Source of the DNA: Saprospiraceae bacterium | GTDB lineage: Bacteria > Bacteroidota > Bacteroidia > Chitinophagales > Saprospiraceae | NCBI GenBank assembly: GCA_026993525.1 | Contig: JALWSS010000168.1 | Coordinates: 1-43,975 of the forward strand | Length of the DNA stretch: 43,975 bases | Direction: 5' to 3' | Shown here: piece by piece, positions 13,085-16,372 of the stretch | Layout: each line of letters begins with the position of its first letter | Numbering within the stretch: the stretch's first letter is position 1 | Made by a program: the position numbers and the translations under genes | Notes under the pieces: model-generated | The model's input: only the letters and a program-made list of their open reading frames with translations | What the model was told of the DNA's origin: nothing | The model's database searches: none

Positions 13085-13114
13085 CAAAGATAAACCCTTT
13101 GAAATTCTTTCCAA
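13085..13114 (-). promoter_or_regulatory. Promoter of tRNA-Leu (TTG-N19-TATCTTTG)
   Basis: On the minus strand TTG (13114-13112) is followed after exactly 19 bases by TATCTTTG (13092-13085), a perfect Bacteroidota primary-sigma promoter. Transcription would start near 13078, about 35 bases before the mature tRNA. Because a tRNA gene is certain, this promoter calibrates the others called in the window. Confidence 0.85.
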
Positions 13115-13139
13115 CAAAAAAATAATTCATGTCAGATTA

Positions 13140-13940: not shown

Positions 13941-14249
13941 ACCGAAGCCTCCGCCCAAATAGTAGTTTTCTTTTCTTGAGACCAATGACGATGGAGCTCG
14001 TCCCGGAATGCCGGGGCGGGCTTTTTGGTTTAAACAGCTTCGCTGGGTTTAGCCGCCTTCGGCGGGGCTAGTCCGCCTTCGGCGGAGTTTAGGGTCTTCG
14101 GCCGTTTACCGCTGGCGCCTTCCCGATCCCGAAAGCTTTCGGGACTCGGGACGGCCGGCGCCCCCCTGTTCAAAAACCGCAAGAAGAATTCAGGAGCTGA
14201 CCGAAAGTCAGCGCCTGATGGGGTCTCAAAAACCTCACAAAAAACCCCA
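13941..14249. repeat. Repeat-rich intergenic DNA
   Basis: After the terminator at 13996-14026 come two copies of CCGCCTTCGGCGG-type palindromes (14051-14093), the palindrome CCCGAAAGCTTTCGGG (14146-14161, also found at 41062 and 41234) and at 14176-14222 an inverted copy of the palindromic element found twice between the porin and pstS. No gene is seen. Confidence 0.7.
13996..14026 (+). terminator. Intrinsic terminator of the SPOR-like gene
   Basis: An 11-bp GC-rich stem (GCTCGTCCCGG / CCGGGGCGGGC with two G-U pairs, loop AATG) is followed by CTTTTTGG on the plus strand. Classical rho-independent form, 56 bases after the stop codon. Confidence 0.85.
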
Positions 14250-14527
14250 CAAAAAAGGGTTGACCGGCTTGCCGGTCAACCCACATTGCTTACTATCCGG
14301 TTTGCCACATGAGGCAAAGGATAGCCCACACACTATGAGAACACCCAAAATTTTTGTTTCCAGGCAAATCAACCGGGGCACAGCAGGCATCTGAACACAG
14401 GGGGTGGCCGGGGGGTAATCCGGTTTTTGGGATGGCCGTGCTCAGCCTGCCGCTGCGCTGATCCGGTACTGATCTAAAGTGATTTTTCGTTCCGGCCCAC
14501 AGTATGTTTGTCTCCTGTTTTGAATTG
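14250..14527 (-). ncRNA. Candidate structured non-coding RNA with own promoter and terminator
   Basis: A perfect promoter (14563-14533) and a perfect intrinsic terminator (14282-14251) on the minus strand bound a unit of about 278 bases that lacks a credible reading frame; the 60-residue frame at 14442-14624 begins before the promoter. Inside, on the minus strand, there is a hairpin CTATCC-TTTGCC / GGCAAA-CC-GGATAG (14324-14293) just before the terminator, and a smaller TCAGC / GCTGA hairpin. It lacks the conserved cores of tmRNA, RNase P RNA and SRP RNA that I can recall. A 6S-type RNA cannot be excluded. Class unknown; existence as a transcript is the well-supported part. Confidence 0.65.
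14251..14282 (-). terminator. Intrinsic terminator of the candidate RNA
   Basis: GGGTTGACCGG and CCGGTCAACCC form a perfect 11-bp stem with loop CTTG/CAAG (14257-14282), followed on the minus strand by TTTTTT. On the plus strand there is no T-run, so the direction is clear. A second T-rich stretch lies just beyond. Confidence 0.88.
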
Positions 14528-14532
14528 TGCTA

Positions 14533-14563
14533 CAAAAGTAGTGGCGGCCTTTACCGGCATCAA
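14533..14563 (-). promoter_or_regulatory. Promoter (TTG-N20-TACTTTTG) of the candidate RNA
   Basis: On the minus strand TTG (14563-14561), a 20-base spacer, then TACTTTTG (14540-14533). This is the same architecture as the tRNA-Leu promoter. Predicted start near 14527. Confidence 0.82.
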
Positions 14564-14863: not shown

Positions 14864-16372
14864 TTGATGAAGAACAGAGATGCGTTGTTTCAGCTGATCA
14901 AATCCATGTCCAGAACCGAAAAGCGGTACTTTGTACTGGATGCGAGGAAAAGCGGTAAGATGAGTAGCAAGTACCTCAGGTTGTTTGAGCTGTTGAATGG
15001 CATGGAGATTTACGACGAGAAGAAACTCAGGAAGCACTTTCCGAAACACCTCTCCACCGACAAAGCCTACCTGTACGAGTCCATTTTGCGAAGCATGAGA
15101 GATTATATGAGTGCTTCGTCAAAAGCCATTCAGGCAAAGGAGCGTCTGATGGACGCCCGGTACCTGTATGAGAGAGGGCTATACGAACAGTCCAACCAGC
15201 GGCTACAGGCTGCCAAAGCCATTGCTTCTGAGTTGGAAGACCAGTTCACCCTTTTGGAAGTCAACAAAGAAATTTACTCCACCCTTTTTGACAGCAGGGC
15301 CGTGGTGGGACCTGAGCACCTGGAACAATTGCAGCAGGAAAAGGCGGAAATCGTTGAAGCCATTGGCGAAGAGCTCAAATACCTGGACTTGTACTACCGC
15401 CTGCTGCTGGAGGTGTTCCGGGATTTCAAACTGCAAGGGCCTGAGCGGCTTGCCGAGCTGGAAAGACGGCTTCCGATGCACCTGCTGCTTCCCGGCAATG
15501 AGCCCCGGTCGGCCCAGGCTCAAAGGCGTTTCCTGCTGTGCAATGCCGTGTACCATCACCTGAAGGGCGACATGGAAAAGGTGTATCACTTCTCGCTGAA
15601 AGCCGTGGAATGGTGGGATGAACACCCCATTCTCAAAACCGAAGAATTTCACCGCTACATCATCAACGTGTCCAACCTGGTGAATACCATGTACAAAACC
15701 CGCCATGCACCGGATGCTGCCAAATGGCTGGAGAAGCTAAAGTCTGAAAAAAGCAGCCAGAGCTACCACAACGAGCGGGTCATCTTCCTCAAACTTTCCA
15801 TCGGCAATTTGCTGTACCTGCTCAATGGCCACCAGTTTGAAGCTGCGCACAGGGCCTTGCCCGAGATCATCGGGAAGATGAACAAGTTCGGGTTGAAGCG
15901 CTCCATTGTGCTGGCCGGAAACATTGCCACCGTCAATTTCCTCGTGGGTGATTTCGGAGCCTGCATCGAATGGACCGGACACATCATGAAAAACATCAAA
16001 ACCGGCAGCCGCCAGGATATTCACCGCATCATCCGGATTTACCGGCTCATCGCATTGTATGAAATTGGAGAAATAGACCAGTTGGATGCGGGGGTGCGTA
16101 GTACGCAGCGCTTTTACGAAAACAATGGCTTGCCGGCCGATGCTTTTGAGTTTCGGCTACTGAAACTGCTGAAACGGGCTTTCCGGGCCCCTGTTTACGA
16201 AGTGAAAGAAAAACGCAGGGAGTTGTATTCCTTCCTCCAAAACGAGCTGGAGCGAAACCCGGCCACCCTCGGTGCGGAAGAGCTGTTGCTTTGGGCTTCG
16301 GGCCACCTGGGCCAGTCAGGCCGGCAGGTAGTAAAACCGGATAAACCACTCAGCGCCAACGGAGCCTTCTAA
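14864..16372 (+). CDS. Helical-repeat protein of unknown function, Bacteroidota type
   Basis: The 502-residue soluble protein is almost entirely alpha-helical and has the spacing of degenerate tetratricopeptide-like repeats. The N-terminal segment (LFQLIKSMSRTEKRYFVLDA) recurs in a family of about 500-residue Bacteroidota proteins of unknown function that I recall only as hypothetical. No catalytic motif, signal peptide or membrane segment is visible. The start has two adjacent Mets (MMKN). Its 3' end overlaps the convergent gene at 16316 by 57 bases. A scaffold or protein-interaction role is likely from the fold but unproven. Confidence 0.8.
   Translation: MMKNRDALFQLIKSMSRTEKRYFVLDARKSGKMSSKYLRLFELLNGMEIYDEKKLRKHFPKHLSTDKAYLYESILRSMRDYMSASSKAIQAKERLMDARYLYERGLYEQSNQRLQAAKAIASELEDQFTLLEVNKEIYSTLFDSRAVVGPEHLEQLQQEKAEIVEAIGEELKYLDLYYRLLLEVFRDFKLQGPERLAELERRLPMHLLLPGNEPRSAQAQRRFLLCNAVYHHLKGDMEKVYHFSLKAVEWWDEHPILKTEEFHRYIINVSNLVNTMYKTRHAPDAAKWLEKLKSEKSSQSYHNERVIFLKLSIGNLLYLLNGHQFEAAHRALPEIIGKMNKFGLKRSIVLAGNIATVNFLVGDFGACIEWTGHIMKNIKTGSRQDIHRIIRIYRLIALYEIGEIDQLDAGVRSTQRFYENNGLPADAFEFRLLKLLKRAFRAPVYEVKEKRRELYSFLQNELERNPATLGAEELLLWASGHLGQSGRQVVKPDKPLSANGAF

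Follow-up and report, generated by a model that had tools for sequence, protein, structure and literature searches.

A conserved structured RNA locus of a Saprospiraceae genome as a probable member of a multicopy small RNA family of Saprospirales

The LhrC-type sRNAs of Listeria are present in multiple copies. In Bacteroides thetaiotaomicron, the FopS family is described as 14 paralogous sRNAs, which form two clusters, one of ~65 nt and one of ~70 nt, and have a 5' region in common, nine of the 14 being intergenic, and the RRM protein RbpB and these 14 sRNAs are reported to control polysaccharide loci (PMC11697453). BTnc201, also named MasB (RF04177), is a Bacteroides sRNA of ~100 nt described as having a GU-rich stretch before a hairpin and called narrowly conserved (PMC10994844). 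In Flavobacterium, Rfp18 is described as a conserved small RNA that affects the mRNA levels of proteases, with a predicted pairing in its third stem-loop (PMC9723704).

The locus studied here lies in a Saprospiraceae DNA stretch of 43,975 nucleotides (the window). We read it, with a probability of about 0.6, as a non-coding RNA gene that belongs, by its 3' part, to a multicopy family of trans-acting sRNAs of Saprospirales, with a conserved block as the base-pairing part. Like FopS, the family consists of multicopy paralogous small RNAs in a Bacteroidota host with an RRM protein (PMC11697453), and the FopS/GibS trait of several paralogs per genome is also found, with four copies in the genome of the window and six in the related genome G006. 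Unlike FopS, the Saprospirales family is mainly sited beside dnaG and its promoter strings differ by clade; FopS was compared by description, and no covariance-model link to it was found in the Rfam scans. The family shares with BTnc201 a GU-rich stretch before a hairpin. The BTnc201 model gave weak matches to copies in three loci (L016, L019 and L014, with 28.7, 26.7 and 23.9 bits against a gathering score of 105) and the window was not among its matches even at E<=10. Rfp18 comes from the same phylum and is likened by description, not by sequence; the LhrC-type sRNAs, which also show several similar copies per genome, belong to an unrelated lineage and are likewise compared by description.

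At gathering thresholds, Rfam 15 found only a tRNA-Leu in the whole window. E-value scans of the locus, eight copy-bearing stretches and 10 ortholog stretches gave only tRNA above a gathering score, and nothing convincing was found for the locus at E<=10. Covariance models gave no match to tmRNA, RNase P RNA or SRP RNA, nor did ARAGORN to tmRNA, tRNA-Leu being the sole housekeeping RNA found, in agreement with the first-pass annotation, which had matched the locus to none of these three RNAs. The literature search, limited to open-licence PMC, found no paper with the letters guguucucauagugug and nothing on the RNA family. Going by Rfam 15 and the literature searched, the family appears to be new.

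The features of the window locus are the following.

14533..14563, minus strand: promoter string of the Bacteroidota sigma-A type, with TTG at 14563-14561, 20 nt, and TACTTTTG at 14540-14533.
14250..14528, minus strand: predicted transcript of ~280 nt, placed from the promoter (start ~5 nt past its box) and the terminator (end at the T-run).
14496..14507, minus strand: leader "anti-seed" ACATACTGTGGG; its 12 nt are predicted to pair with CTCATAGTGTGT in the conserved block, to which they are complementary when G-U pairs are counted.
14351..14495, minus strand: structured leader, common to G004 only, among the matches listed.
14329..14346, minus strand: near-invariant 18-nt block GGGTGTTCTCATAGTGTG, a putative seed or protein site.
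14293..14324, minus strand: hairpin 1, CTATCC-TTTGCC / GGCAAA-CC-GGATAG; a helix here covaries in the family alignment.
14257..14282, minus strand: terminator hairpin of 11 bp, with arms 14282-14272 and 14267-14257 and loop 14271-14268.
14251..14256, minus strand: T6 run of the terminator, read from the sequence.

The promoter, the hairpin with six T residues and the internal hairpin had all been named in the first-pass annotation, and each is present. The window has seven TTG-N17..22-TAnnTTTG strings, compared to a mean of 2.7 and a maximum of six in 40 shuffles, so this string is weak evidence when taken alone; the promoter is supported because exactly one such string is found upstream of the motif in all 11 ortholog loci, where up to 1200 nt were scanned and the spacing is 19-20 nt. 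The same form had been claimed for the promoter of the nearby tRNA-Leu (GAG), and a TTG-N19..22-TATCTTTG string is indeed found upstream of this gene at 13085-13117. Besides the terminator, the 44-kb window has no perfect hairpin with 10 bp or more and T5 behind it, and 40 shuffles gave none. The fold predicted for the 281-nt minus strand has an energy of -108.6 kcal/mol (z -4.44), with none of 200 shuffles equally good. The description of the locus as a structured, apparently non-coding unit is supported. Short palindromic repeats, such as CCGCCGAAGGCGG and CCCGAAAGCTTTCGGG, were seen by eye downstream of the terminator, at 14035-14175 of the window.

As to the claim that the locus lacks a credible reading frame, open reading frames of 46-60 aa do exist on the minus strand, and one of them (14235-14390, 51 aa) has a signal-peptide-like stretch followed by SFASCG, as a small lipoprotein gene would; however, G004 has CGT at the cysteine codon in the same frame, the orthologs differ by 1-nt gaps within the frame, and the frame runs through the terminator. 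This reading frame was rejected, and a lipoprotein gene is hardly credible as an explanation of the locus.

BLAST of the locus was run against 60 genomes, including its own. Among the matches listed, the nearest relative, G004, is the only other genome with all 341 nt (85% identity), and the short block is found in many of the 60. The neighbouring gene, which encodes a 502-aa protein without Pfam match (14864-16372), has a match in the 14 genomes of the genus, own genome included, two of these matches being partial. The ortholog set comprises 12 stretches, those beside the 502-aa gene from 11 relatives plus the window, with the genus genomes G002 and G011 left out. The block is found at the syntenic site in 11 of the 12, window included, and in G005 the contig ends before the site. 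The window and G004 have 217 nt between promoter string and block; for the nine other orthologs this distance ranges from 585 to 1046 nt. Furthermore, both hairpin 1, behind the block, and the terminator hairpin are formed in all 11 orthologs. Both partners of two outer terminator pairs differ (U-A to G-C; G-C to A-U) when the nine other orthologs are compared with the window and G004. Hairpins, promoter and terminator, whose loss in close relatives would have told against an RNA gene, are thus kept in the 11 orthologs. Across the whole unit, the window and G004 differ by substitutions in 2% of the paired and 25% of the unpaired columns of the consensus structure, and three of 72 pairs are changed on one side, none on both sides and none broken; the consensus structure was chosen from these two sequences themselves, which favours a low change in paired columns. 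On this comparative evidence, the window locus is very probably a real, conserved RNA gene, and what is conserved is mainly the last ~100 nt of the unit; its transcription and the transcript size of ~280 nt are deduced from the signals at both ends.

The transcription unit of the relatives shows a second RNA-like element, in which GAGCGGTTATAAGTAGTTATTTTCTGT, unchanged in the nine aligned sequences, is followed by a GGGTTT.. hairpin and a T-run. It is located at L150:2305-2324 (plus strand) and L154:2140-2159 (minus strand), and is also present in L147-L149, L151-L153, L155 and L156. Its 20-mer core is found in 10 of the 14 genus genomes, G002, G004, G011 and the own genome being those without it, and with two mismatches in G034. 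This element, which is absent from the window, is probably another small RNA.

An RNA of the 6S type, mimicking an open promoter, had been considered for the locus, and the window leader does contain a long hairpin. No 6S match was obtained in the Rfam scans of the window and the orthologs, the leader is common to G004 only among the matches listed, and the conserved feature is a short block followed by hairpin and terminator, so the 6S-like identification is not supported and its likelihood is close to negligible. A 6S-Flavo search of the own genome also gave no match; its control was found nowhere either.

The first-pass annotation had called the transcription unit an orphan; it is instead one copy of a multicopy family. 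Three more copies are found in the own genome, on contig C28, in an array divergent from dnaG (four matches in all). In this array (L011), 547 nt separate the block from the primase zinc-finger motif, and BLAST links it to the window through 30 nt at 97% identity, independently of the covariance model. Common to the members is [AT]TGGGTGTTCTCATAGTGTG, followed by a G+C-rich hairpin and a T-run. In the window and its orthologs, a second hairpin precedes the T-run. The arrays of the genus contain two to five copies each in the stretches examined, and the copies are of several types, told apart by the hairpin.

A pattern scan of 84,980 species genomes gave at least 116 stretches, with ~30 chance matches expected (an estimate for 17 fixed bases). 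Among the best 80 of the 116, the titles of 61 are of Saprospira-, Lewinella-, Phaeodactylibacter-, Aureispira- or Flavilitoribacter-type and 19 are other. The family was named for Saprospirales because the NCBI taxonomy places Phaeodactylibacter, Neolewinella and Aureispira in three families of this order. Five loci, L033, L034, L047, L103 and L133, look like chance matches (8.6 to 23.8 bits with the covariance model R1), and L081 (41 bits) is probably a true copy; these six were removed before the member filter and the promoter-string counts, and kept in the dnaG counts. Filters for length, N and T-run were passed by 164 of 183 rows, and 46 of the 164 were aligned. A 7-pair helix is formed in 87% of the cells of this alignment and shows 48 double-change cells, compared to 11.9 in shuffles, with none of 500 shuffles as high. 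The model R1 was built from the 46-row alignment, in which the window and eight orthologs of its locus make up nine rows, so the score of the window with R1 (58.7 bits) is not independent.

R1 matched 86 of 160 sampled genomes of the taxonomic family of the window at E<=0.01, some near the threshold, and 63 of 112 genera, so about half of the sampled genomes show no match at this threshold. The matches are at most six per genome, and many of the 86 genomes have one only. In the order sample, 14 of 149 genomes matched at E<=0.001, and the two outside the taxonomic family reach only 22.5 bits. In the phylum sample, 15 of 296 matched at E<=0.01, and only three genomes, all of the same taxonomic family, exceed 25 bits. 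Sixteen of 20 weaker matches are at most one mismatch from the 18-mer, two have four mismatches (an indel, by eye) and two lack the block; conservation of the block is over-estimated, because it underlies both the pattern scan and R1. A variant locus type was seen in L039, L130, L218 and L221, in which the 3' side of the hairpin continues with CACCAC or CACACCAC, followed by a stretch like AATTATAATCCCATGAA; judged by eye, GTGTGTG may pair with this 3' sequence.

In the 116 listed stretches of the pattern scan, dnaG is divergent from the block in 68, in the same direction in one and absent from the stretch in 47. The dnaG calls used Pfam for two flanking proteins of other loci and the motif G[LNR]CPFH..KTPSF elsewhere. 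The tandem arrays contain 56 neighbouring pairs of copies, of which four have less than 45 nt between the T-run and the next block and three were not measurable; with so little room left in these few pairs, some copies probably depend on read-through.

Copies were also found in phage-like DNA, where five stretches of a viral contig collection matched R1, three at 44-58 bits and two at 21.5 bits. The copies with block and hairpin are located as follows.

L262:5716-5790: phage-like copy.
L265:11928-12002: phage-like copy.
L263:2118-2184: phage-like copy.

L262 and L265 are identical around the motif, which lies directly 3' of a gene that has tail-fibre assembly matches and is preceded by genes for tail fibre and baseplate (named from searches with the proteins of L262). 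L263 contains a DNA methyltransferase gene, and its two searched proteins have no PHROG match, so it is taken as phage from its place in the viral collection. Furthermore, in L081, a contig with a cellular title, the motif is found near an endolysin gene. Such copies would be expected of a mobile or phage-derived repeat without host function, which is nevertheless very improbable given the synteny with dnaG and the 502-aa gene, the covarying helix and the conserved promoters. The position directly behind the tail-fibre assembly gene in L262 and L265, and the hairpin and T-run that follow the block in nearly all members seen, would also suit a termination or processing signal at 3' ends, with no regulator involved. 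This we regard as improbable, since 68 of the 116 listed loci are intergenic and divergent from dnaG rather than behind many different genes, and genomes in the sample have at most six matches.

Promoter strings were scanned in the 181 of 184 copies with 120 nt upstream. Strings of the sigma-A type were found in 12 copies (one in the reversed-sequence control), the sigma-54 type TGGCA[CT]-N5-TTG in nine (none in the control) and CGTCT[AT]T[AT] in 18 (two in the control); the -7 box alone was found in 24, against 19 in the control, which is no excess. None of the four strings was found within 120 nt upstream in 133 of the 181 copies. Upstream of 12 of 13 genus arrays, TGTG, A and TTT are invariant in the alignment, followed ~24 nt on by TC within CGTCTTA. 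In Flavobacterium, a CGT box is described as marking an ECF-type motif (PMC9723704). These strings suggest that the clades have come to differ in their transcription signals, whereas the block has stayed the same.

The nine copies with the sigma-54 type string belong to L044, L060, L088, L139, L143 (two copies), L209, L217 and L223; the titles of three of these are a Saprospiraceae MAG, Aureispira and Saprospira grandis. The string lies 45-60 nt upstream of the block in eight of the nine and 109 nt upstream in L223.

The possible targets of the block were studied through its complement, CACTATGAGAACA, which contains ATG. In 14 genomes, of which 10 belong to the genus, its only perfect matches lie within the RNA copies. 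Of 20 one-mismatch sites, no more than five might serve as the start codon of a long frame, and one site, before the gene of a phosphoribosyltransferase-domain protein, is common to the own genome (G000) and G004. In a test on 598 start regions of the window and the pattern-scan loci, the block was no more complementary than shuffled seeds, 39 of 60 being as good or better on the mean, and the pairing at translation starts known for FopS/GibS (susC and others) finds no enrichment in these starts. With no perfect 13-mer outside the RNA copies of the 14 genomes and this negative test, pairing at start codons is not supported as the mode of action. The trans-acting regulator proposed in the first-pass annotation stays the best reading, and the test on 598 starts gave it no target.

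The predicted folds did not show an openly exposed block that could serve as seed: the mean unpaired fraction of the block is 45% over 158 short forms, and for the full unit of the window it is 11%. In this full unit, nine leader bases (14506 to 14498) are predicted to pair with the block with a probability of ~1. The longest complementary run between leader and block is 12 nt in the window (14507-14496) and 11 nt in G004, and 6-9 nt, mostly at other places, in the nine longer orthologs. Leader duplex energies were no better than in shuffles (0.117 to 0.967 of the shuffles as good). The predicted pairing is read as possible sequestration of the block by the window leader.

The own genome encodes two RRM_1 proteins, in open frames of 112 and 119 aa, and has no Hfq match, the Hfq control being found in five of the 14 genomes; it is apparently Hfq-less. 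CsrB-type RNAs titrate CsrA, and in the main rival explanation the block would similarly bind an RNA-binding protein, such as an RRM protein, which the tandem copies titrate. The near-invariance of the whole 18-nt block, the 56 neighbouring pairs, the two RRM_1 proteins and the failure to detect an mRNA complement to the block (14 genomes; 598 start regions) fit such a protein-binding decoy; however, most array copies come with a hairpin and T-run of their own, as one long multi-site RNA would not, and many of the 86 matching genomes have one match only. We consider a decoy possible, though unlikely.

The preferred reading, a family of trans-acting base-pairing sRNAs, is drawn by analogy from the RRM proteins and the missing Hfq match, which make up an RbpB/FopS-like setting. 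The sigma-A type promoter would produce a transcript of ~280 nt. The 3' part of this unit is, from the sequence comparison, the family member: the near-invariant 18-nt block and one or two hairpins, the last being the intrinsic terminator. The block would be the acting part and, by analogy with FopS, would pair in trans with mRNAs, a pairing that RRM-domain RNA-binding proteins probably help or oppose. Copies at several places under different sigma-factor promoters might feed one regulon, and in the window copy the block may stay hidden by the leader, to be freed when the transcript is processed or the leader displaced. A bolder version is speculative and rather unlikely to hold in full: the family would be a core RNA regulator of Saprospirales with an invariant seed, its many copies rewired to sigma-A, sigma-54 and ECF-like promoters and carried by phages, and the window copy would be an antagonist pair, in which the leader holds the complement of the seed and the transcript acts as off-switch or sponge until it is cut.

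As a multicopy RNA with a near-invariant block, often sited beside dnaG, also present in phage contigs and with sigma-factor promoter strings that vary between clades, the family offers an entry to RNA regulation in Saprospirales, since one oligonucleotide should hybridise to most members. Furthermore, it provides a second test case for RRM-centred sRNA networks.
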